Assembly: GCA_030652575.1 (NCBI GenBank)
Contig: JAUSQI010000098.1
Location: forward strand, 1 to 32,296
Length of the DNA stretch: 32,296 bases
Source: Stagnimonas sp.
GTDB taxonomy: Bacteria > Pseudomonadota > Gammaproteobacteria > Nevskiales > Nevskiaceae
Direction of reading: 5' to 3'
The notes beneath the pieces were generated by a model. That model ran no database searches, was not told where the DNA came from, and saw only the letters and a list, made by a program, of their open reading frames with translations. Position numbers and translations under genes: made by a program. How positions within the stretch are numbered: the first letter of the stretch is position 1; every line of letters starts with the position of its first letter. Positions 10,668 to 30,902 of this stretch are shown piece after piece.

Positions 10668-13079
10668 TTAGTTCGCCGCCTTCTCCAGCGTCGCCACCAT
10701 GCGTTGCACGCGGTCACGCCAGTCTTCGCTGGAAAGCTGCTGGCTGATGCGCTCGGCCCAGAGCGGGAAGGCGAGCGGGCTGAAACGCGGGGTGTGCCTG
10801 AGCAGCAGCGTTGCCGACTGCGCACGCTCCAGCGCGAGCTTGAGGCGCTGGTAGTCGAGCTGGTGTTCCAGCACTTCGCTGAGCGCCTGCCTGGTCAGCA
10901 GATTGTCGGCGTCGTATTTGCTGAGTACATCGAATAGCAGGCCACTCGACACCTGCACCTGCTTCACCGATTTGTTGTTGCCGGGGAAACCCTCGAACAC
11001 CAGGCCCGCCACCCGCGCGATCTCGCGGAAGCGCCGCTTCGCCATCTCCGCCGCATTGAGGCTCAGCGGCAGATCGGTTTCGAGATTCTGCGGCGACAGC
11101 GCGGCGCGAAAGGCAGCCTCGTCCAGCGGCGGCAGCTCGCGTGCGAGCAGCTCGAAGCCGTAGTCGTTGACCGAGAAAGTGAAAGTGGTGGGCTTGATAC
11201 GCGCCAGCCGCCAGGCCATGAGCGCACTCAGGCCCTCGTGCGCGTGGCGGCCCGCGAACGGGAACACGAACAGGTGCTCGCCTTCGCGCGATTTTCTGCG
11301 CTCGATCAGCAGCAGGCCGGGGCGTGGCAGCGCACTCCATTCGGCCTGCACATCGAGCAAAGGCTTGAGCACGCGCGCTTCTTCGTTGGGCAGCTCGCCG
11401 TCGGCGATGCGGCCGAAGAGTTCGAGCAGCGAGTCGGCGAGTGCGGACGACAGCGGCATCTTGCCGCCCGCATAGCGCGGCGTGGTCTGGCCCTTGCCGC
11501 CGGCCTTCACGAAGGCCGTCATGTCTTCCACCTTGCTCAGCGTCAGCTTGCGGCCGCCGAACAGGAAGCTGTCGCCCACGCTCAGCCGTGCGATGAAGCT
11601 CTCTTCCACCTGGCCGATGTTGCCGCCGCTCAGGAAGGCGACGCGCATCATGCTGTCGGCGGTGATGGTGCCGACGCTCATGCGATGGCGGCGCGCCAGC
11701 GTCGCGTCTTCCACCCGCAGCAGACCCTCACGCTCGACCACCTTGCGGTATTGCGGGTACGCCGTGAGCGAGGCGCCGCCGCGCTGCACGAAGTCGAGCA
11801 CCCATTGCCATTCGCGCTCGCTCAGCTCGGCATAGGCGTGGGTGCGGCGCACTTCCTGCAGCATGTCGTCGGCACGCAGCACGCCGGTGAGCGCCAGCGT
11901 CACCACATGCTGCGCGAGCACATCGAGCGCGAGCCGAATCGGCCGGCGCGATTCAATGCGACGGTGTTCGAGTGCCAACCTCGCCGCCGCGAACTCGGCA
12001 AGCTCGAGCGCATTGGCCGGCACGCACAAGATCTCGCTCGCCGCCCCCGGCTGGTGGCCACTGCGGCCCGCGCGTTGCACCAGCCGCGCGATGCCCTTCG
12101 GCCCGCCGATCTGGATCACCTGATCCACCGGCGAGAAATCCACGCCCAGATCGAGCGAGCTGGTCGCCACCACCGCGCGCAGGCTGCCATCGCGCAAACC
12201 CTGCTCGGCGGCGGCACGCAGCGTGCTGTCGAGCGAGCCGTGGTGCAGGGCGATGGGCAGCTCGTGCGCGGCCATCGAGAGCGCGTCGTGCCAGCGCTCG
12301 GCCTGGGCGCGGGTGTTGGTGAACACCAGCGTGCTGCGCTTCGCGTGCAGCGCCTGCACCACTTGCGGCAGCAACTCCAGCCCCATGTGGCCGCTCCACG
12401 GGAAGCGCTCCACCTTGTCGGGGATCAGCGTGCGCACGTTCAAGGTTTTGGGCAGGTCGGCGCCGATGACGCGGCCACGATGCCCGGGCCCGAGCAGTGT
12501 GGTCATCGCCTCGTCGACATTGCCGAGCGTGGCCGAAACGCCCCACACGCGCAGCGTCGGCGCGAGCGCCCGCAGCCGCGAGATCGCCAGCTCGGTCTGC
12601 ACCCCACGCTTGGTGGCCAGCAGCTCGTGCCACTCGTCGACGATCACCGCCTTGAGCCCACGCCATTGCGGGATGAGATCGGCATAGCTGAGCAGCAGCG
12701 AGAGCGACTCGGGCGTGGTGACCAGGCACTGCGGCAGCCGCTTGCGCTGCTTGGCGCGCTGGGCTGCGGTGGTGTCGCCGGTGCGGCGCTCGATGCGCCA
12801 GGGCACGCCGAGCGCATCGGCTGCCGCTTGCAGATTTGCGGTGGTGTCGGCTGCCAGCGCGCGCATCGGCGTGACCCAGACGACGCGGATCGGCTCATCG
12901 GCACTGACGCCCTCCAGCAACGGTCCGCCCCAGGCGGCGAGGGTCTTGCCGGTACCGGTCGGCGCGTGGATCAGCCCGCTCTCGCCCGCCGCATAGGCAG
13001 CCCAGGCCTCGCGTTGGAAGTCTGCGATGCGCCACTTATTGGCTGCGAACCAGCGCTCGATACGCTTTGGGTCGCTCAT
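10668..13079 (-). CDS. Ligase-associated DNA damage response DEXH-box helicase (Lhr-like)
   Basis: The product has 803 residues, the usual size for the Lhr-like helicase of the ligase-associated repair set (family TIGR04121 as I recall it). Walker A is APTGTGKT (residues 39-46), the DExH box is DEWH (148-151), motif III is SATLGN, and motif VI is QRAGRSGH, followed by the Lhr winged-helix and DUF4175-like C-terminal half. It would unwind DNA with 3'-5' polarity, working with a DNA ligase and a nuclease in repair. Its start overlaps the LysR stop by 4 bp (ATGA). Partners are encoded elsewhere in the window, the ligase at 24184-25779 and the exonuclease at 28576-29619. The PdeM phosphoesterase that commonly adjoins this helicase is not here. 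Confidence 0.93.
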   Translation of the reverse strand: MSDPKRIERWFAANKWRIADFQREAWAAYAAGESGLIHAPTGTGKTLAAWGGPLLEGVSADEPIRVVWVTPMRALAADTTANLQAAADALGVPWRIERRTGDTTAAQRAKQRKRLPQCLVTTPESLSLLLSYADLIPQWRGLKAVIVDEWHELLATKRGVQTELAISRLRALAPTLRVWGVSATLGNVDEAMTTLLGPGHRGRVIGADLPKTLNVRTLIPDKVERFPWSGHMGLELLPQVVQALHAKRSTLVFTNTRAQAERWHDALSMAAHELPIALHHGSLDSTLRAAAEQGLRDGSLRAVVATSSLDLGVDFSPVDQVIQIGGPKGIARLVQRAGRSGHQPGAASEILCVPANALELAEFAAARLALEHRRIESRRPIRLALDVLAQHVVTLALTGVLRADDMLQEVRRTHAYAELSEREWQWVLDFVQRGGASLTAYPQYRKVVEREGLLRVEDATLARRHRMSVGTITADSMMRVAFLSGGNIGQVEESFIARLSVGDSFLFGGRKLTLSKVEDMTAFVKAGGKGQTTPRYAGGKMPLSSALADSLLELFGRIADGELPNEEARVLKPLLDVQAEWSALPRPGLLLIERRKSREGEHLFVFPFAGRHAHEGLSALMAWRLARIKPTTFTFSVNDYGFELLARELPPLDEAAFRAALSPQNLETDLPLSLNAAEMAKRRFREIARVAGLVFEGFPGNNKSVKQVQVSSGLLFDVLSKYDADNLLTRQALSEVLEHQLDYQRLKLALERAQSATLLLRHTPRFSPLAFPLWAERISQQLSSEDWRDRVQRMVATLEKAAN

Positions 13080-13957
13080 GCCACGCCGCGCGTCTCGGCC
13101 AGCAGCCAGTCGCGCAGCGCGAAGATGGCGGCGAGCTTGGGATGGTCGGCGCGCCAGACGAAGTAGTGCGAGTACGGGTCGGGTACGGCCAGCTCGAACA
13201 GCCGCACCAGCCGGCCGCGTTGCAGCTCGCCCTCGGCCAGCGAGCGGCGCGCGAGAGCAATGCCCAGGCCCGCCGCAGCGGCATCCATCATCACGGACGA
13301 ATCGGTGAACGAGGGGCCTCGGGCTGGCTCACGAAAGTCGAGACCGGCGGCGTGCAGCCAGGGCTCCCAAGGCAGCCAGGGATTGCGCAGCAGGGTGCAG
13401 TCGGCCAGCTCTTTCGGGCTCTTGGGCAGCAGGCCGTCTCGGTAATTGGGCGCACAGACGGGGAAGCTCGAATCGCCCATCAGCCGCACCTGCTGCACGT
13501 CGGGCCAGCCGCCGTTGCCGAAGCGGATCGCGCAATCGGCATCGCCGGCTGCCAGGTCGGCAAGGGTCGCGCGCACATCCACGAAGAGATCGATCTGCGG
13601 ATACAGCGCCACGAAACCCGACAGTCGCGGCACCAGCCAGCGGCTGGCGGTGGACGGCAGCACGCTGACGTTGAGCGTGACGTGTTCGGTGGGCCCCGCG
13701 TGGGCAAAGCTGCGCTCCAGCAAGCCGAGCGCCTGCCGCACCTTGGTCACCAAGAGCCGCCCGTGTTCGGTGGGCACCATGCGGTTCTTCTCGCGCGCGA
13801 ACAGCTTCACGCCCTGCCGCTCTTCGAGACTGGTGATGTGATGGCTGATGGCGCCGTGCGTCAGCGACAGCTCTTTCGCCGCCGCCGTGTACGACTGGTG
13901 CCGGAACGCCGCCTCGAAGGCCTGCAGGGTGGCGAGTGGGGGCAGGCGCGTGGACAT
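13076..13957 (-). CDS. LysR-family transcriptional regulator (GcvA-like)
   Basis: The product has 293 residues. The N-terminal winged helix-turn-helix covers residues about 8-67 (LATLQAFEAAFRHQSYTAAA, then LSLTHGAISHHITSLEERQG). A type 2 periplasmic-binding-like effector domain follows, of the GcvA/AmpR group (FVDVRATLADLAAGDADCAIRFG; ARRSLAEGELQRGRLVRLF). Effector unknown. It is divergent from the GNAT-GST-RarD-MFS genes across 116 bp containing two inverted repeats, which by LysR convention makes that operon its likely target. Its last codons overlap the helicase start, so readthrough from the LysR promoter should also express the helicase. Confidence 0.93.
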   Translation of the reverse strand: MSTRLPPLATLQAFEAAFRHQSYTAAAKELSLTHGAISHHITSLEERQGVKLFAREKNRMVPTEHGRLLVTKVRQALGLLERSFAHAGPTEHVTLNVSVLPSTASRWLVPRLSGFVALYPQIDLFVDVRATLADLAAGDADCAIRFGNGGWPDVQQVRLMGDSSFPVCAPNYRDGLLPKSPKELADCTLLRNPWLPWEPWLHAAGLDFREPARGPSFTDSSVMMDAAAAGLGIALARRSLAEGELQRGRLVRLFELAVPDPYSHYFVWRADHPKLAAIFALRDWLLAETRGVA

Positions 13958-14541: not shown

Positions 14542-15248
14542 CCCACTACCGCCTTTACTACGCCCCCGGCGCCTGCTCGCTGGCGACCCATATCGTGCTG
14601 GAGGAAATCCGCCGTGCGGGTCTGGCCGACTACGCCAGCACGCGGCTGGTGCTGCCCTCTGGCGACCAGAAGAAGCCCGAGTTTCTCGCCATCAATCCGC
14701 GCGGCCATGTGCCAGTGCTGAGTTATCGGCTGGAGGGCGTCGAGGGCGTGCTCACCGAGAACCTCGCCATCCTGAAGTTTCTCTTGCAGCAGCACCCCGA
14801 AGCACGCTTGCTGCCGAGCGCCCCGGCCGACGAGGCGCGCGCCTGGGAGTGGCTGAGCTGGCTCGCCACCGACGTGCATTCGTTCGCCTTCATGATGGTG
14901 TTCTACCCCGCGCGCTTTGCCGAGTCGCTGGCTGCACAAGCCGAGGTCGAGGCCAAGGGCCGCGCGCTGCTCACGCAGCACTGGGTTGATCTCGAATCGC
15001 GCTTGCCCGCAGAGGGCTTTGCATTAGGCGCTTTCAGCGCGGTCGACGCCATGCTGATCGTGTTCTACCGCTGGGCGAAGCGCTATGGCTTCACGCCGCA
15101 GTCGCACTACCCGCGCTGGGCCGCGCTCAGCGAACGCACGCTGGCCCGCGAGAGCGTGCAGGCCGTGTTCAACGACGAACGCATCAACCTCACCGATGCG
15201 CTGCCGCCTCGGCCGACGCACCTGTTCCAAATCGGAGTGACGCCATGA
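14538..15248 (+). CDS. Glutathione S-transferase, beta-class-like
   Basis: The product has 236 residues from the ATG overlapping the GNAT stop; the frame is open 22 codons further up but inside that gene. The thioredoxin-like N-domain begins YRLYYAPGACSLATHIVLEE, with Cys13 at the position of the catalytic cysteine of beta-class GSTs, and contains INPRGHVPVL (cis-Pro loop) and LTENLAILKFLL. The C-domain is helical. Beta-class enzymes conjugate glutathione to electrophiles or reduce mixed disulfides in the cytoplasm. The stop overlaps the rarD start (ATGA). The company of an acetyltransferase and two exporters suggests detoxification, by inference. Confidence 0.9.
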   Translation: MTHYRLYYAPGACSLATHIVLEEIRRAGLADYASTRLVLPSGDQKKPEFLAINPRGHVPVLSYRLEGVEGVLTENLAILKFLLQQHPEARLLPSAPADEARAWEWLSWLATDVHSFAFMMVFYPARFAESLAAQAEVEAKGRALLTQHWVDLESRLPAEGFALGAFSAVDAMLIVFYRWAKRYGFTPQSHYPRWAALSERTLARESVQAVFNDERINLTDALPPRPTHLFQIGVTP

Positions 15249-16210
15249 GCGTGCAAGAAGCGGAAGCAAGGCGCGGCTTCATCGCCGCTTTCGTGGCGTT
15301 TCTGATCTGGGGATTGCTGCCGATCTACATCCACCAGCTCGCGCCCATGCCCAGCGTGCAGATCATGGCGCACCGCGTGATCTGGGCCTGCGTGTTCGTG
15401 TTCGCCTACCTCGCCATCAAGGGCGACCTCGGCAAGGTGTGGGCGGCGCTTGCGGATGCGAAGGCGCGCCTCCGTCTCGCAGCATCGGCCGTGCTCATCA
15501 CCATCAACTGGCTGGTCTACGTGTGGGCGGTGAGCAACGGCCATGTGGTGGATGCCAGCCTCGGCTACTTCATCAACCCGCTGGTGAGCGTGCTGCTGGG
15601 CGTGTTCGTGTTGAAGGAATCGCTCAACCAAACACAGTGGGTGTCGGTGGCACTCGCGGCCCTCGGCGTGCTGTGGCTCACCTTCAGCGTCGGGCAGTTT
15701 CCGTGGATCGCCATCTCGCTCGCGCTTTCGTTCGGCACCTATGGGTTGATCCGCAAGCAGGTGGTGGTGGAGTCGGTCGCTGGCCTCGGCGTGGAGACGC
15801 TGCTGATCGCGCCGATCATGCTCGCGTATCTCTTCTGGACGTTGCACACCGGCAGCTTCGCCTTCGGCACCTTGGGCCTCAAGGTGGACGTGATGCTCAT
15901 CGCCAGCGGTGCCGTCACCGCCATCCCGCTAGTGCTGTTTGCCTACGGCGTGCGGCGCGTGCCGCTCAGCACCGTCGGCATCCTGCAATACGTGGGGCCG
16001 AGCTTGCAGTTGCTGACCGGCGTGTTCGTGTTTCACGAGCCGTTCTCGCACACGCAGCTGGTCGGCTTCGGGCTGATCTGGGCCGCACTCGTGGTGTATG
16101 CGCTGGAGGGCGTGTGGCGCAACCGCCGCCTGAAGACCACCGCAGCACTCGCCGATAGCGGCGCACCGGCCGCCGCCGTCGCCACTGCCTCGTCGGCCGC
16201 ACGCTCGTGA
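15245..16210 (+). CDS. rarD: RarD-type EamA-family permease
   Basis: The product has 321 residues with about ten hydrophobic segments. The start (GFIAAFVAFLIWGLLPIYIHQL), then the HRVIWACVFV, TINWLVYVWAVSNGHVVDASLGYFINPL and GVRRVPLSTVGILQYVGPSLQLL segments, are diagnostic of RarD, an inner-membrane EamA transporter first linked to chloramphenicol sensitivity; its substrate remains unclear. The C-terminal 25 residues are an Ala-rich cytoplasmic tail. The start overlaps the GST stop and the end overlaps the next MFS gene (GTGA), so all four genes form one translational chain. Confidence 0.93.
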   Translation: MSVQEAEARRGFIAAFVAFLIWGLLPIYIHQLAPMPSVQIMAHRVIWACVFVFAYLAIKGDLGKVWAALADAKARLRLAASAVLITINWLVYVWAVSNGHVVDASLGYFINPLVSVLLGVFVLKESLNQTQWVSVALAALGVLWLTFSVGQFPWIAISLALSFGTYGLIRKQVVVESVAGLGVETLLIAPIMLAYLFWTLHTGSFAFGTLGLKVDVMLIASGAVTAIPLVLFAYGVRRVPLSTVGILQYVGPSLQLLTGVFVFHEPFSHTQLVGFGLIWAALVVYALEGVWRNRRLKTTAALADSGAPAAAVATASSAARS

Positions 16211-24183: not shown

Positions 24184-25779
24184 CTACGGCTGGGACAGAA
24201 GTGCCTTCAGGCTGTTGAGCGTATCGGCGGCCGCCGCCGGCTTGTCGGTGCGCCAGCGGGCGATGCGGGGGAAGCGCAAGGCCACGCCCGCCTTGTGCCG
24301 CGTGCTGACCTGGATGCCCTCGAAGGCGATCTCGAACACCTGCAGCGGCTCGACGCTGCGCACGGGGCCGAAGGTCTCGCGGGTGTGGCTGCGGATCCAG
24401 CGGTCCATCTTCAGCAGCTCTTCGTCGGTGAGGCCGGAGTAGGCCTTGGCGACCGGCACCAGCAGCTCGCCGCTCCAGACCGCCAAGGTGTAATCGGTGT
24501 AGAGATTGGCGCGCCGCCCGTGCCCTGTCTGGGCGTAGAGCAGCACGCAATCGACGGTGAGCGCACCGACTTTCCACTTCCACCAGGCGCCGCGCTTGCG
24601 GCCGGTTTGATAGCTGCTGTCGAGGCGCTTGAGCATCAGCCCTTCGACGCCGCGCGCGCGGGCTTCGTCTCGCAACAGCGCGAGTGCAGGCCAGTCGCCG
24701 ATGACGCGCTGCGAGATGCGCAGGCCGTGCGCGGCGGCGAGCACTTCGAGCTGGGCGCGGCGCGCACTCAAGGGTCGTTCGCGCCAGTCCTCGCCCGCGT
24801 GTTCGAGCAAGTCGTAAGCAAGCAAGGTCACCGGCGCATCGGCGAGCAGTTTCTTGCCAACCGTCTTGCGGCCGATGCGCTTTTGCAGCAAGGCAAACGG
24901 CAGCGCGGCGTCATCGCGCCACGCCAGGATTTCGCCATCGAGCACGGTGCCCTCAGGCAGTTGCGCGGCGAGTGCTTCGACTTCAGGGAAGCGTCCGTTC
25001 AACAGCTCCTCGCCGCGGCTCCACACCCAGGTCTGGCCATCGCGACGAATCACCTGCGCGCGGATGCCGTCCCACTTCCACTCCGCCAAGTAGTCGCCCG
25101 ACTCGCCCAGTGATTGCGGCGTATTTTCGAGCGGCGAGGCGAGGCAGAAGGGATATGGCTGGCTGGGGTCTTGCACCGTCTCGCCCAAGGGTGCGCGCAA
25201 CGCGGCATAACTTGCCGCACTGGGCTGCCAGTCGCCTGCGAGACGCTGCTGCACCAGCGGCGCGGGCAAGCCCGCCTGCTCAGCCAACGCGCGCGCGGCT
25301 AGGCCCGCCGAGACGCCGACGCGCAGCGAACCCGTCAGCAGCTTGGTGAACAGGTAGCAGGCTTCGCGCGGCAGCGTCGCCCACTCGTGCAGCACGGCTT
25401 CGCGCTGTTGTTCGGGCGTTTGTGAGGCGAGCGCTTGCAGGGCGGCAATCGCGGCACTCACCGTAGGCACCTGTTCGCGGGGTGGAACGGGCTGCACGGT
25501 GTCGAGCAACAGTGTGATGGTCTCGGCCAGATCGCCCACCTGCGCATAGCTCGCCTCCACCAAGGCGGGGGACAGCAACGTGACTTCGCCCACCCATTGC
25601 CGCAGCAGCGTCGGCGCAATCAAGCGTTTCAGACGGTTGCCGAGCAACAGCCACAAGGCCCAAGCCTTGTCGGCATCGGCCACCTCGCCATCCGCAAAGT
25701 ACGCGCGCAGGGCCGCCACTTTTTCACCGGTGGCGGTGGTGGCATCGAGCTGCTGGTAGAGCTGGGCAAAGCGGCGCAT
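24184..25779 (-). CDS. ATP-dependent DNA ligase of the ligase-associated repair set
   Basis: The product has 531 residues from the ATG at 25779, before MRRFAQLYQQLD; an open extension of 32 codons upstream is Cys/Arg-rich and not family-like. The helical N-domain (1-210) holds ALWLLLGNRLKRLI and LFTKLLTGSLRVGVS. The nucleotidyl-transfer motif is EWKWDGIR, with adenylated Lys235. Motif III-V regions include SRGEELLNGRFPEVEAL, LDGEILAW, GVEGLMLKRLDSSY and WWKWK, and an OB-fold ends the protein. It seals nicks using ATP, beside the cell's usual NAD ligase. This type is normally found with an Lhr-like helicase and a metallo-beta-lactamase exonuclease, both in this window. It is divergent from the DUF255 gene across 71 bp. 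Confidence 0.94.
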   Translation of the reverse strand: MRRFAQLYQQLDATTATGEKVAALRAYFADGEVADADKAWALWLLLGNRLKRLIAPTLLRQWVGEVTLLSPALVEASYAQVGDLAETITLLLDTVQPVPPREQVPTVSAAIAALQALASQTPEQQREAVLHEWATLPREACYLFTKLLTGSLRVGVSAGLAARALAEQAGLPAPLVQQRLAGDWQPSAASYAALRAPLGETVQDPSQPYPFCLASPLENTPQSLGESGDYLAEWKWDGIRAQVIRRDGQTWVWSRGEELLNGRFPEVEALAAQLPEGTVLDGEILAWRDDAALPFALLQKRIGRKTVGKKLLADAPVTLLAYDLLEHAGEDWRERPLSARRAQLEVLAAAHGLRISQRVIGDWPALALLRDEARARGVEGLMLKRLDSSYQTGRKRGAWWKWKVGALTVDCVLLYAQTGHGRRANLYTDYTLAVWSGELLVPVAKAYSGLTDEELLKMDRWIRSHTRETFGPVRSVEPLQVFEIAFEGIQVSTRHKAGVALRFPRIARWRTDKPAAAADTLNSLKALLSQP

Positions 25780-25850: not shown

Positions 25851-27377
25851 ATGAGCAAAATCCTACGCATCGCACTGACTGGATGGCTGTTGCTGTGCGC
25901 AGCCCCGCTGCTGGCGGCCGAGCGTGTTGACTTGCCTTGGCGACCGTTCACACCCGCGCTGTTCGCGCAGGCCAGAGCCGAGAACAAGCCGGTGTTTCTC
26001 TACCTCGAAGCCGTGTGGTGCCACTGGTGCCATGTGATGCAGGCCAAGACCTTTCCCGATGCTGGTGTGCAGAAGCGGCTTGGTGAGCAATGGCTGATTG
26101 CGAGTGTCGACCACGATGCCGACCCGCTGCTCGCCAACCGCTATCGCGACTACGGCTGGCCGGCGCTGATCTTCTTCAACGCGCAGGGGCAGGAGGTGGC
26201 GAAGCGTGCGGGCTTCCTGAGCGCGGCGGATTTCAGCGCGCTGCTCGACGCGGTGGTGGCCGACCCGACGCCGGAGCAATCCGCCCGCGAGGAGCAGGTC
26301 CGCGCGCCGCCCATCACCACCTTGCCGAAGGACTTGCGCACCATGCTTGAAGCAGCGCATCGCACCGCCTACGACACCAAGCAAGGCAGCCTGAAGCTGG
26401 CGCAGAAATACCCAGACCGCGACAGCGTCGAGTACGCACTGACGCTCGCAGCAGCCGGCGACCGGACCGAAGCGCGGCGCGCGCGGCAGACGCTCGACGC
26501 GGCACGCGCGCTGATCGACCCGGTGTGGGGCGGCATGTATCAGTACTCCACGCACGGTGACTGGGTGCATCCGCACTTTGAAAAGATCATGCGTACGCAG
26601 GCGGGGGCGCTGCGGCTGTATGCGCAGTCGTATGCGCTGACGAAAAACGCGCGCGACCTGCGCAGCGCGAACGCCATCCGCGATTACTTACTCAACTTTT
26701 TGCGCGATGCCGATACCGGCGCGTTTCACGGCACGCAGGATGCCGATGCGGTGCCGGGCGAAAAGGCGCAGGCCTACTTCCAGCTCGGTGACGCCGCGCG
26801 CCGCTGCATCGGCCTGCCGCGCATCGACCCGCATTTGTATGCGCAGGAAAACGGCCTGGCGATCGAGGCCCTGGTGGCGCTCTACAACGCCGGGCGCGAT
26901 GCCGACACCCTCTGTGCCGCCACCCGTGCGGCGCAGTGGGCGCTGGCCCATCGCGCGCTGCCGGACGGCCGCTTCGCACACGAAGCCGATGTCGGCCTCT
27001 ATCTGGGCGACACGCTCTACATGGCACGCGCCGCACTCGCCCTGCACGGCGTCACACGTGATGCCGACTGGCTTGCGGTTGCCGAGCGCGCGGCATCGGC
27101 AATGGCCCTGCACTTCGCAGCCGAGGGCGGCGGCTATCTCACCGCAGTGGCTGAAGGTGCAACCTTGCCACCGCCACGGGTGACGGCGGAAAACATCGAT
27201 GCGGCGCGCTTCTACGCCGCATTGGCAAAAGCCACCGGCAAGGCCGAATACCTTGCCGATGGCCGTCATGCACTACGCTGGCTGGCGTTGCCGGAAGTTG
27301 CCGGCGGCACGCTCACCGAGCCGGGCATTCTGCTCGCTGCGGACGAACTGGCCGCGGCGGAGAACGCCGCGCACTAG
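25851..27377 (+). CDS. Exported thioredoxin-like DUF255 (YyaL/SSP411-related) protein
   Basis: The product has 508 residues from the ATG at 25851. A Sec signal peptide (residues 1-23, LTGWLLLCAAPLLAA) precedes a thioredoxin-like domain with the DUF255 signature EAVWCHWCHVM (Cys57, Cys60). The rest is an alpha-helical toroid, with WGGMYQYSTHGDWVHPHFEKIM matching the SSP411 motif. Cytoplasmic YyaL proteins have about 680 residues; this is shorter and exported, so it probably acts in periplasmic thiol chemistry or on sugar-like ligands, which is inference. The ligase gene is divergent; the small gene at 27374 converges and overlaps by 4 bp. Confidence 0.87.
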   Translation: MSKILRIALTGWLLLCAAPLLAAERVDLPWRPFTPALFAQARAENKPVFLYLEAVWCHWCHVMQAKTFPDAGVQKRLGEQWLIASVDHDADPLLANRYRDYGWPALIFFNAQGQEVAKRAGFLSAADFSALLDAVVADPTPEQSAREEQVRAPPITTLPKDLRTMLEAAHRTAYDTKQGSLKLAQKYPDRDSVEYALTLAAAGDRTEARRARQTLDAARALIDPVWGGMYQYSTHGDWVHPHFEKIMRTQAGALRLYAQSYALTKNARDLRSANAIRDYLLNFLRDADTGAFHGTQDADAVPGEKAQAYFQLGDAARRCIGLPRIDPHLYAQENGLAIEALVALYNAGRDADTLCAATRAAQWALAHRALPDGRFAHEADVGLYLGDTLYMARAALALHGVTRDADWLAVAERAASAMALHFAAEGGGYLTAVAEGATLPPPRVTAENIDAARFYAALAKATGKAEYLADGRHALRWLALPEVAGGTLTEPGILLAADELAAAENAAH

Positions 27378-27547
27378 CGAGTGGTTTGTGCGAGCTGCAC
27401 GCTGGCCACGGGCGTGGCGTCCGGTGCGCCTCGCGCGGTCTGGAAGGACAGCGCCGGCAACGCCAGCAGGCAGACGGTGAACCCGATGTGGCGGCGCTTG
27501 CGGGCGCGGGCGAGCATCGCGAGGCGGGGGGCGTAGTCGTAGGGCAT
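27374..27547 (-). CDS. Small hypothetical membrane protein, 57 residues
   Basis: A short frame starts at the ATG at 27547 behind GGAGAA. It encodes a basic start (PRLAMLARARKRRH), one hydrophobic stretch (IGFTVCLLALPALSF) and a polar tail. The stretch could be a signal peptide or single anchor. It lies downstream of the WYL regulator gene on the same strand and overlaps the convergent DUF255 stop by 4 bp. I do not recognise it; short length and location make it uncertain. Confidence 0.5.
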   Translation of the reverse strand: MPYDYAPRLAMLARARKRRHIGFTVCLLALPALSFQTARGAPDATPVASVQLAQTTR

Positions 27548-27591
27548 TTCGGGTTCTCCGTGGGGCGGGGACACCCACTATCTCTACGCTT

Positions 27592-27610
27592 CGGCTCAAA
27601 TCCTGAGCCG
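27592..27610 (-). terminator. Hairpin after the WYL regulator gene
   Basis: Perfect 7-bp arms CGGCTCA (27592-27598) and TGAGCCG (27604-27610) flank a 5-nt loop, 6 bp beyond the WYL stop. On the minus strand no T-run follows (AAGCGTAG), so it is a weak terminator or 3'-end stabiliser for the waaA-exonuclease-WYL transcript. Confidence 0.45.
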
Positions 27611-27616
27611 CAATTT

Positions 27617-28579
27617 TCACTTCTCGTATTGCGCGAGCGCGGCCTTGAGGCGAGCGGCGACGGCCTTGCGCAAGGCAGGTGGCCCGATCACTTCCACATC
27701 TTCGCCGTGGCGCAGCAGATCCATCACCAGTTCTTCGTCGCGGTGATAGGGGAAGCGCAAGTGCCAGCTTCCATCGGCTCTGCGTTCGCCAACTTGTGCG
27801 GGATGCCACTGCTCGTCGGCGACCCAGCGCGCAGCCTTGGGCGAGAACAGCAGTTCCGCAGTGTGCGTCGCCGCCCCCGAGAAAATGCCGTAGCTGCTGG
27901 CGAGCACGGCATCGAGCGCGCTCGCGGGTTCTTCCTGCGCCGGGGTCGGCAGCTCACGCGCTTCGCCGAGGCGCTCCACCGCGAAGCTGCGCAGCGCGTT
28001 GCGCGTGTGGCACCAGGCATCGAGATACCAGCGGTCGCGGTAATGGGTGAGGCGCTGCGGCGAGAGTTCGCGCACGGTGATCTCGTCGGACTCGCGGCCG
28101 TGATAGCGCACGCTCAGGCGACGGCGACGCACCAGTGCGCTGGCGACGGTGCCGAAGGCACTGCCTGCCTCGCGGCGCGTGGCACCCAGCAGGCGCAGGC
28201 GCTGCGGCCAGTCCGGCAGGGCAGCCTGCGCACCGAGCAGCGCACGTGCCTTGCTGCGGATGGGGGCGAGCTGCTCCGACAACACGCCAGGCGCGGTACC
28301 TTGCAACAGGTTCTCGAACACGAGTAGCGCCGTGAGCTCGCCGGCATTGAGCCAGAAGCCCGGCAGCTCGAACTGCACCGCCGCGTCTCGCGCATAGAAC
28401 ACGCCGTGGCTGCGCGCGCGGATCAGCGGCGCGCCGAACTCTTCTTCCAGCTGTGTCAGCACGCGCTTGAGCGTCGCGGTGGAGCACTCCAGCCGCTGCT
28501 GCAATTCCGCAAACGGGATGGGCGTGCGGCGATTGCTGAGGATGCGATGGCAGCGGATGAGGTGTGCGAGCGTGCTCAT
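27617..28579 (-). CDS. WYL-domain transcriptional regulator
   Basis: The product has 320 residues. An N-terminal winged helix-turn-helix (1-60, LIRCHRILSNRRTPIPFAEL, then STATLKRVLTQLEEEFG) is followed by the WYL domain (about 145-215) with the triad in DRWYLDAWCH (Trp184-Tyr185-Leu186) and a WCX extension ending the protein. WYL regulators, including PafBC and phage-defence regulators such as BrxR, sense nucleic-acid or nucleotide ligands and often respond to DNA damage. The ATG overlaps the exonuclease stop (ATGA), tying its translation to that repair nuclease. That makes control of the ligase-associated set a natural hypothesis; no operator can be assigned from sequence. Confidence 0.93.
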   Translation of the reverse strand: MSTLAHLIRCHRILSNRRTPIPFAELQQRLECSTATLKRVLTQLEEEFGAPLIRARSHGVFYARDAAVQFELPGFWLNAGELTALLVFENLLQGTAPGVLSEQLAPIRSKARALLGAQAALPDWPQRLRLLGATRREAGSAFGTVASALVRRRRLSVRYHGRESDEITVRELSPQRLTHYRDRWYLDAWCHTRNALRSFAVERLGEARELPTPAQEEPASALDAVLASSYGIFSGAATHTAELLFSPKAARWVADEQWHPAQVGERRADGSWHLRFPYHRDEELVMDLLRHGEDVEVIGPPALRKAVAARLKAALAQYEK

Positions 28580-29619
28580 GCCGTCTCTGTCGTCGTCGCG
28601 CCCTGCTCGCCCTCGAACGCGGTCTTGAGTTCGGCGGCGTCGATGCCTTTTTCTTTGAGATAGGCGATCAAGGCATCGGTGTTGCCGTGGGTGGCGAGCA
28701 CGCGCTTCGCCCCGGTTTCCTCGATGGTGCGGATCAGCCCCGGCCAGTCGGTGTGGTCGCTCATCGTGAAACCGCGGTCGTAGGCCTCGCGGCGACGCGT
28801 GCCGCGCAGGCGCATCCAGCCGCTGGCGAAGCCACTGCTGTACGGCGCAAAGCGGCGCATCCACGGGGTACCGCTGGCCCCCGGCGGGGCGAGGATCAAG
28901 CGGCCCGCGAACACCGCGCCCTTGGGCGGCGTGCCGACGGCTTCGGTCGGCATCATCTTCACACCGGCCTTGCGATAGACCTCGACCAGCGGCGTCATCG
29001 CGCCGTGCAGCAGCACTGGCTCCACCTCGCCGCGTGCGAGGGCATCGGCGTCGAAGAAGCGGGTCAGTTCGGCCAGCACGCGCTGCGCCTTGCCGAGCGC
29101 GTAGCAGAACAGCACTGCGGTCTTGCCCTCGGCCTTGCACTGCTGCCACCAGTCGAAGATTTCCTGCGCGACGACGGCGGGTGCATCCCAGCGATACACC
29201 GGCAAGGCGAACGTTGCCTCGGTGATGAAGGTGTCGCAAGCCACCGGCTCGAACGGCGCACAACTCGGGTCGGCGCAGCGCTTGTAGTCGCCGCTCACAA
29301 CCCAGACCTCCCCTGCAACTTCGATGCGCACCTGCGCGCTGCCCAGCACGTGGCCGGCAGGGTGCAGTGACACCGTCGCACGGCCCATCGTGATGCGCTC
29401 GCCGTAGTCGAGCAGCGTCATCGCACTGTCGCGCCCGACGCGCGCGCGCATCAGGCCCTCGCCCGCTTTCGTGGCCCAGTAATGGCCCATGCCGGGCCGC
29501 GCGTGGTCGGCATGGCCGTGGGTGATGACGGCGCGCGGCACCTTGCGGTGCGGGTCGATGTGAAAGTCGCCAGCGGGGCAGTAGAGGCCGCTGTCGGTGG
29601 CGATGACGAGATCGCTCAT
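28576..29619 (-). CDS. Ligase-associated DNA damage response exonuclease
   Basis: The product has 347 residues from the ATG at 29619. It is a metallo-beta-lactamase fold nuclease of the SNM1/CPSF-like kind: ITHGHADHARPG (HxHxDH, residues 34-39), HPAGHVLGSAQVRIE, VVSGDYKR, TFITEATFALPVYRW, and FTMSDHTDWPGL with a terminal VLATHGNTDAL. Two zinc ions should be bound. Such proteins (TIGR04122 as I recall) accompany an ATP-dependent ligase and Lhr-like helicase. The open frame upstream of 29619 runs inside waaA and is not used. The start overlaps the waaA stop by ATGA, and the stop overlaps the WYL start likewise. Confidence 0.93.
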   Translation of the reverse strand: MSDLVIATDSGLYCPAGDFHIDPHRKVPRAVITHGHADHARPGMGHYWATKAGEGLMRARVGRDSAMTLLDYGERITMGRATVSLHPAGHVLGSAQVRIEVAGEVWVVSGDYKRCADPSCAPFEPVACDTFITEATFALPVYRWDAPAVVAQEIFDWWQQCKAEGKTAVLFCYALGKAQRVLAELTRFFDADALARGEVEPVLLHGAMTPLVEVYRKAGVKMMPTEAVGTPPKGAVFAGRLILAPPGASGTPWMRRFAPYSSGFASGWMRLRGTRRREAYDRGFTMSDHTDWPGLIRTIEETGAKRVLATHGNTDALIAYLKEKGIDAAELKTAFEGEQGATTTETA

Positions 29620-30902
29620 ACCAATGGCTCCAGCAGCGCGAGCAGTTTCTTCAGCGCGCCGCGATTGGCTGCGACAGCCGCTGCGGCGCGCGCACGGCGC
29701 GCCTCGCGTTCGGCTTGCAGATGGCCTTGCGCTTTTTGCCACGGCAGCCAGTCGAGCAGCGCGGCGCTCAGCGTGACGGCATCGGTGATTTCGCGCGCGC
29801 ATTCGGCTTGCAGCAGCAGCGTGCGGGCGTCGAGAAAATTGTGCATGTGCGGGCCGAACAGCACGGGCACACCGAGGGCTGCGGGTTCGAGCACATTGTG
29901 GCCGCCGACAGGCACCAGACTGCCACCAACGAAGGCGACTTGTGCCGCCGCGAGATAGGCCATCACCTCGCCCATCGAGTCGCCGAGTAGCACGGGCGTG
30001 GGGTGGCGTTGACCACTCACGTCAGGGTGTTCGGCGAGTGTGGAGCGGCGCTCGAAGCTCATACCCTTGGCAGTGATGCACCGCACGACCTCGTCGAAGC
30101 GTTGCGGATGACGCGGCACCAGGATGAGCAGGGCGTAGGGGTCGTGCTGCAGCAGGGCGTGATGGGCATCGAGCACGATGTCTTCTTCGCCTTCGTGCGT
30201 GCTGACTGCAATCCAGATCGCGCGGTCGGCATGCCACAGGCGCGCGATGTTCGCCGTGAGTGGGTGCGGGGCACTGGGCAGGGCAAGATCGAACTTGAGA
30301 TTGCCGATCACCTGCACATGGGGTGCGCCGAGTGCGGTGAAGCGCTCGGCATCGAGCGCACTTTGCGCCGCGACGGTGGTGACCTTGCCCAGCACGCTGC
30401 GGGTGAATCCGGCCACGCGCGAATAGCCCTTGAAAGAGCGTGGCGAGAGGCGGGCGTTGGCGATGGTGAGCGGGATGTCGCGCGTCTTGAGCGCGGCAAA
30501 CAGGTTGGGCCACAGCTCGGTTTCCATCACCACCACTTGCTTTGGTTGGGCGCGGTCGAGAAAGCGGGCGACGACGTGCGGCAGATCGTACGGGGCATAG
30601 GTGTGGATGACGCGCGTGCCGAGCGATGCCACCACGCGCTCGCTGCCGGTCGGCGTGGTGGTGGTGACCCATACCCGTCGCTCGCCGTGGCGCTGGATGA
30701 GTGCTTCGATCAGCGGCAGCGCGGCCAGCGACTCACCGACGCTCACCGCATGCACCCACACCGCCACTGGATGCGCAGGCACGCGGCCAAAGCGCTCGCC
30801 AATCCGCTGCCGATAGGCCGGCTGCACCCGGCCCTTGAACCACAGGCGCAGCACGATCAGCGGCGTGAGCACGGCCAACAGCAGGGTGTAGAGCATTCGC
30901 AT
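29616..30902 (-). CDS. waaA: 3-deoxy-D-manno-octulosonic acid transferase
   Basis: The product has 428 residues. WaaA (KdtA) adds Kdo from CMP-Kdo to lipid IVA at the cytoplasmic face of the inner membrane. It has an N-terminal anchor (MRMLYTLLLAVLTPLIVLRL), YRQRIGERFG, the acceptor-side HAVSVGES with the presumed catalytic Glu57, VVMETELWPNL, IANARLSPRSFKGY, and the CMP-Kdo site region GGSLVPVGGHNVLEPAALGVPVLFGPH. A second ATG two codons on is an equally possible start. It diverges from the lpxL-like gene across 43 bp, a lipid A pairing. On its own strand it leads into the exonuclease and WYL genes with 4-bp overlaps. Confidence 0.96.
   Translation of the reverse strand: MRMLYTLLLAVLTPLIVLRLWFKGRVQPAYRQRIGERFGRVPAHPVAVWVHAVSVGESLAALPLIEALIQRHGERRVWVTTTTPTGSERVVASLGTRVIHTYAPYDLPHVVARFLDRAQPKQVVVMETELWPNLFAALKTRDIPLTIANARLSPRSFKGYSRVAGFTRSVLGKVTTVAAQSALDAERFTALGAPHVQVIGNLKFDLALPSAPHPLTANIARLWHADRAIWIAVSTHEGEEDIVLDAHHALLQHDPYALLILVPRHPQRFDEVVRCITAKGMSFERRSTLAEHPDVSGQRHPTPVLLGDSMGEVMAYLAAAQVAFVGGSLVPVGGHNVLEPAALGVPVLFGPHMHNFLDARTLLLQAECAREITDAVTLSAALLDWLPWQKAQGHLQAEREARRARAAAAVAANRGALKKLLALLEPLV

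Follow-up and report, generated by a model that had tools for sequence, protein, structure and literature searches.

A WYL-domain regulator beside a repair exonuclease in Stagnimonas sp. and its shared box before DNA-repair and anti-phage genes: a candidate activator

Transcription regulators of the WYL-WCX type are known from several bacteria, and the present work concerns one such protein, of 320 amino acids (aa), encoded behind a ligase-associated repair exonuclease in a stretch of 32,296 nucleotides from Stagnimonas sp. (contig JAUSQI010000098.1, hereafter the window; contig C146 of genome G000 in our set, an assembly of 3.44 Mb in 177 contigs). In a phmmer search its nearest relatives of solved structure are PafBC (E 1.7e-17), with which it shares the WYL-WCX core, and PafC (E 7.6e-17). 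PafBC is reported to be activated by single-stranded DNA (ssDNA) and to sit between sigma domain 4 and the promoter, in contact with a site at about -26 that takes the place of the -35 element, a position also reported for SiwR (PMC11804915, PMC10693628). PafBC is a heterodimer, whereas here a single gene is found, together with a symmetric box, CTCA-N5-TGAG (the PafBC motif was not compared), and anti-phage genes behind that box. SiwR of Mycobacterium smegmatis is described as a homodimeric WYL activator which binds ssDNA and a 19-bp imperfect palindrome between -35 and -10 (PMC10693628); it is reported to control adjacent genes, whereas the targets predicted here are scattered. DriD of Caulobacter crescentus, likewise a winged helix-turn-helix (HTH) protein with WYL and WCX domains, is reported to act as a homodimer on pseudo-palindromic boxes that overlap the -35 at a fixed distance from the -10, in an SOS-independent damage response including recJ and recA (PMC12340889), and to act on didA, a cell division inhibitor (PMC12340889, PMC4211646). 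In contrast to the genes described below, the accessible parts of these DriD reports yielded no targets in clustered regularly interspaced short palindromic repeats (CRISPR), bacteriophage exclusion (BREX) or restriction systems; the box sequences were not systematically compared.

Homologues of BrxR are reported to be tied to diverse defence systems including CRISPR-Cas (Picton 2022, PMC9122601), and control of CRISPR-Cas by WYL proteins was predicted by Makarova 2014 (PMC4012209). The boxes described for BrxR lie upstream of brxR and serve repression. The window WYL gene is not directly upstream of a defence system, and on this ground of position the protein was not placed in the BrxR group; sequence similarity is weak for BrxR (7t8k, E 0.21) and confined to the WYL domain for CapW (7tb6, E 7e-6). 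A joint recA-CRISPR WYL regulon in Proteobacteria was not found described in our literature search, which was short of a full review.

The WYL gene (27617..28579, minus strand) encodes an HTH-WYL-WCX regulator (PF13280, 70.3 bits; WCX PF25583, 68.8 bits; HTH_11, 25.1 bits at a cut-off of 25) and is the sole PF13280 match in the window genome. Directly behind its stop codon lies the palindrome GGCTCA-N5-TGAGCC (27593..27609, minus strand), conserved in G054, a genome of the same genus (locus L048), and behind this a predicted -10 element, GATAGT (27577..27582, minus strand); box and -10 together match the full pattern CTCA-N5-TGAG-N13-A-N3-T exactly (27577-27607). Across 57 orthologue loci, the core CTCA-N5-TGAG occurs between -20 and +200 of the WYL stop codon in 22, where 0.26 would be expected from its rate elsewhere in the loci. 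It is the best of all 256 N5 palindromes (the runner-up is found in 4 loci), other spacers from 1 to 9 nucleotides (nt) give 0-2 loci, and the box is spread over 10 of 25 clusters (60% identity) that have a member carrying it. Upstream of the WYL genes, inverted repeats consist of mixed hairpins only. Genomes were scanned with the pattern RKCTCANNNNNTGAGMY, the reversed pattern serving as control: the 29 genomes of the family that hold an orthologue contain 103 sites against 13 for the control, and the 13 family genomes without any WYL contain 12 against 11.

A -10 element has two key bases, A(-11) and T(-7). Among 41 oriented sites (22 behind WYL genes, 11 at recA and 8 at other targets), every one has A at +14 and T at +18 after TGAG, which correspond to these key bases, so that the palindrome core spans -37 to -25. 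The 41 sites omit the boxes before umuC, queA and later-named genes, and the umuC/queA boxes of L181, L183, L188, L196, L201 and L290 also fit the full pattern of box and -10. After collapsing copies, the sites fetched come to 94 (103 scanned) in the genomes with an orthologue and 17 (36 scanned) in the others, and the -10 rule is obeyed in one orientation by 63 of the former and 1 of the latter. Since the distance to the -10 is fixed, as for PafBC, SiwR and DriD, the layout argues for activation.

Genes behind the box were assigned by its position. All 11 genomes of one genus (G037-G047) have it 48-70 bp before the start of recA, as a conserved block amid an otherwise diverged upstream region. 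It also precedes lexA in G056, an RmuC-like gene in G046 and the gene of a probable DNA repair protein (TIGR03623) in G043. Defence genes behind the box comprise an I-E-like cas3 in G001, unlinked to the WYL gene of that genome (it scores below the equivalog cut-off, and its sequence is truncated at the edge of what was fetched), cas1f in G032, G033 (by identity) and G035, brxA of BREX in G033 and G034 (by identity), and type I methyltransferase genes of restriction systems in G034, G042 and G044 (called by PADLOC for one and below the NCBIfam cut-off for all). The box further precedes queA and a 5'-nucleotidase gene in some genomes of genus g10, and many other boxes stand without an identified gene. 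An earlier note on this DNA had counted the WYL protein in a family that often senses DNA damage or nucleic-acid ligands and had proposed it as a candidate controller of the ligase-associated repair genes; the first part fits operators before recA, lexA, the RmuC-like gene and defence genes, while the second fares differently, as discussed below. Box and -10 are also seen at IS1595 transposase or TnpB-type genes in G042, G002 and G047 (L283-L287, L174, L262, L291; of these, a family search confirmed L283 as TnpB and L174 as IS1595), and these boxed elements look as if they were damage-inducible.

In the window genome there are two exact operator sites and none of the reversed control. The first is the box behind the WYL gene, 45 bp before an open reading frame (ORF) of 57 aa with a hydrophobic stretch (27374..27547, minus strand; conserved in G054, no Pfam match), which is a candidate local target; a small membrane effector is conceivable here, because DriD acts on didA. 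Small conserved ORFs of about 100 aa are found behind the WYL genes of G055 and G003 (L052, L128). The second exact box (C27:4970-4986) is found 51 bp ahead of the cas3 gene in an unlinked locus of type I-C, which comprises cas3, cas5c, cas8c, cas7c, cas4, cas1 and an array whose direct repeats are spaced 71-73 nt. The contig of this locus (L138) also carries recX-recA, an efp-like ORF and a Y-family polymerase gene, the family search covering the polymerase and cas genes only. A box with one mismatch (C74:11985-12001) obeys the -10 rule and lies 42 bp before the gene of a radical S-adenosylmethionine (SAM) repair protein (TIGR03916); over the whole window genome, one-mismatch sites are no commoner than the control (22 vs 25 strand matches).

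Matches to the window WYL protein were found in 46 of 398 genomes of the phylum, the window genome included, with 37-48% identity for the full-length ones, and flanks were taken from 26 of the 45 other genomes. Loci with tblastn scores below 150 bits or no hit (L053, L054, L055, L056, L109, L124, L126, L130, L133) were excluded from the tree and the orthologue counts, as were ten of twenty loci in one later set. In a tree of 47 WYLs, the proteins of the window and G054 group with three WYLs near SpoT-like genes (97/89), next with three adjoining type I-G loci (99/97), and then with WYLs adjoining I-C and I-F loci (93/89, not starred). Of the 47 loci, 15 have cas genes downstream of the WYL gene, called in five by PADLOC (Cas3c, Cas3g twice, Cas1f with Cas3f, Cas3e) and in ten by BLAST clustering with these; one further orthologue locus has a type I methyltransferase. 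Behind other orthologues, Pfam and PADLOC identify S9 peptidases, histidine kinases, a SpoT-like enzyme and a GGDEF/EAL protein, and two proteins are without a match; hence, a defence locus is not the setting of every WYL of the group. Models of four sequences by AlphaFold2 had a mean predicted local distance difference test (pLDDT) score of 53.7.

This data suggests a possible mechanism by which one sensor of damaged DNA would turn on repair and immunity together. Judged from sequence patterns, we consider it likely that the WYL protein is a ligand-gated activator binding the shared box, and that its relatives run a joint regulon of DNA-repair and anti-phage genes. The protein would act in the manner of PafBC, SiwR and DriD: bound to GGCTCA-N5-TGAGCC at about -37 to -25, in place of a -35 hexamer, it would bring RNA polymerase to a -10 that is weak and has the fixed bases A(-11) and T(-7). 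The same box would serve related WYLs at recA, lexA, the RmuC-like gene, CRISPR-Cas, BREX and type I restriction genes. In the window genome, two targets would have an exact box, namely the type I-C cas operon, which is unlinked, and the 57-aa ORF that follows the WYL gene; the TIGR03916 gene would be a target with one mismatch. Read-through from waaA and the exonuclease gene may ensure a steady supply of the activator, and its control would then lie in the ligand. This is probably ssDNA, as others have shown for PafBC, DriD and SiwR, and would be supplied by damage or phage DNA.

Several observations weigh against this model. An exact CTCA-N5-TGAG is absent from the tested stretch in 35 of the 57 orthologue loci, and 31 of the 94 fetched sites, including all four of G004, break the -10 rule. 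The 16 family genomes which have only other or unplaced WYLs show an excess of sites as well (24 vs 9, p = 0.007), perhaps due to the unplaced WYLs. At three umuD-umuC loci (G032, G033) the box overlaps the called umuC start, which may be miscalled. The recA gene of the window genome has no such box. In the rest of the genus (G052-G055), boxes obeying the -10 rule are confined to the WYL locus, and the remaining boxes fail it; moreover, no Cas1 was found in G054 (87% complete), the genome with the same exonuclease-WYL overlap. The window genome has a Cas1 over cut-off and G052 a weak one; none was found in G053-G055. Since the genus does not share it, cas3 may be read as a target in the window genome alone, and the presence of the same box at cas promoters of other genomes supports this reading. 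Neither the window genome nor G054 yielded a LexA over cut-off. A replacement of LexA by the WYL protein was considered and is not significant, LexA being missing in 6 of 29 genomes with an orthologue vs 2 of 29 without (p = 0.25); for the WYL clade of the window the counts are 5 of 20 vs 3 of 38 (p = 0.11), some of these genomes being incomplete.

How the WYL gene came to stand beside the exonuclease is a separate matter. The earlier note had described waaA, the exonuclease gene and the WYL gene as joined by ATGA overlaps at 29616-29619 and 28576-28579, and all three genes are confirmed at these coordinates. The first gene of this chain is waaA, encoding a 3-deoxy-D-manno-octulosonic acid (Kdo) transferase (29616..30902, minus strand; NF004388, 483 bits at a cut-off of 438; PF04413), followed by the ligase-associated DNA damage response exonuclease gene (28576..29619, minus strand; TIGR04122, 462 bits at a cut-off of 325). 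The other members of the ligase-associated set in the window are the unlinked cisplatin damage response ATP-dependent DNA ligase (TIGR04120 profile match; 24184..25779, minus strand, the start being set by us at 25779 in an ORF that extends to 25875), at about 2 kb from the chain, and the ligase-associated DEXH helicase of Lhr-core type (TIGR04121 profile match; 10668..13079, minus strand), at about 15 kb. Overlaps of 4 bp are not special to the chain, three further same-strand junctions of this size being present in the window (13076-13079, 15245-15248 and 16207-16210, in ORF coordinates). A GcvA-like regulator of the LysR type overlaps the helicase gene by 4 bp (10668-13957), in a junction of the same kind as those of the chain.

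TIGR04122 is over cut-off in 38 of 58 genomes of the family, and 30 of its 39 hits were examined as loci. The order waaA-exonuclease(-ligase) looks like the older one, because 26 of the 30 loci have waaA ahead of the exonuclease and 12 have a ligase gene within 1.5 kb behind it (the flank limit). The ATGA overlap between exonuclease and WYL gene is found in the window and G054 only (L048:9596-9599). A nucleotidyltransferase-like ORF (L048:8069-8623, named by eye) splits waaA from the exonuclease in G054, so that the overlapping chain of three genes is seen in the window genome only. A second exonuclease-ligase-helicase cluster is present in G054 (L049, G054:C28), separate from the WYL-coupled copy, with an exonuclease 53% identical to that of the window. 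In G052, G053 and G055 the WYL gene lies 1.1-3.3 kb behind the exonuclease gene, at positions which agree by tblastn, and belongs to another lineage; a single clade of all five WYLs of the genus is rejected (approximately unbiased (AU) test, p = 1.7e-5), and two WYL lineages are therefore found beside the exonuclease. These patterns lend themselves to a reading, compatible with the activator model, in which the overlap is a chance neighbourhood from gene shuffling, the ligase gene having moved off and a WYL of a defence-associated clade having landed. The ligase position in 12 of the 30 loci, the variable region behind the exonuclease within the genus and the CRISPR-linked WYLs in the clade of the window protein speak for it; two lineages near the same exonuclease in sister genomes would rarely be expected by chance alone (not computed). 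On balance we lean slightly towards this explanation.

The same operator and targets would also be compatible with a repressor that is released by its ligand, which is the mode reported for BrxR. A repressor could likewise occupy -37 to -25, the box overlaps the promoter core, orthologues stand before defence operons, and BrxR and Sll7009 are both reported to repress (PMC9122601, PMC4012209). However, the box takes the place of the -35 and keeps a constant distance to a weak -10, an arrangement reported for DriD, PafBC and SiwR, and phmmer places the protein near PafBC and hardly near BrxR. We therefore regard repression as an unlikely mode of action.

Control of the chain and the remaining ligase-associated set by the WYL protein, for instance via an operator of different sequence, is very improbable. 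The genes do overlap, all 5 genomes of the genus encode a WYL domain at most 5 kb from TIGR04122, and between the window and G054 the WYL protein is better conserved (88% identity) than the exonuclease (78%). However, a survey of this co-occurrence, as proposed in the earlier note, found it in 0 of the 33 other exonuclease-bearing genomes of the family, many of them drafts, and in 1 of 80 other genomes of the phylum (the PF13280 check covered 80 of 116 other exonuclease-positive genomes). The one case (G232, outside the family) has a WYL gene 2.6 kb before the exonuclease that is no orthologue (no tblastn hit in L133), and within the genus two WYL lineages are involved. With up to one mismatch, the window holds no operator besides the one behind the WYL gene, hence none before waaA, the exonuclease, the ligase or the helicase; with two mismatches there are 12 matches where 15 are expected, which is not above chance, and twelve of the 30 nearest loci behave likewise. 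No exonuclease, ligase or waaA gene was found in the flanks (about 1.5 kb) of the operator loci tested; L197 and L289 contain a partial helicase-like hit at more than 1 kb from the box. With no recurrent linkage beyond the genus and no copy of this operator at the genes of the set, this role was rejected on both tests, and the WYL protein probably does not control the nuclease whose gene it overlaps.

That the palindrome behind the WYL genes is a transcription terminator hairpin, as an inverted repeat with a 5-nt loop right behind a stop codon might indicate, was rejected as highly implausible, since its letters are conserved as well as its pairing (22 of 57 loci vs at most 4 for any other N5 palindrome), the same box precedes the unlinked genes recA, cas3, cas1 and brxA, no T-run follows the copy in the window, and a -10 stands at a fixed distance.

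Taken further, and with somewhat less than even confidence, the WYL-box regulon may be a second damage response of the Nevskiaceae and their relatives, beside LexA or partly replacing it, in which an ssDNA-gated activator would raise RecA, repair functions, CRISPR-Cas, BREX and restriction, and even TnpB/IS1595 elements. The activator of the window genome would be fed by the waaA-exonuclease chain and would arm CRISPR-Cas elsewhere in that genome, and the exonuclease may shape the ssDNA ligand. One box, read from sequence, names a regulator, a promoter layout and likely targets in about thirty genomes, and it leads to the prediction that DNA damage would switch on recA plus CRISPR-Cas, BREX or restriction genes via a WYL activator.

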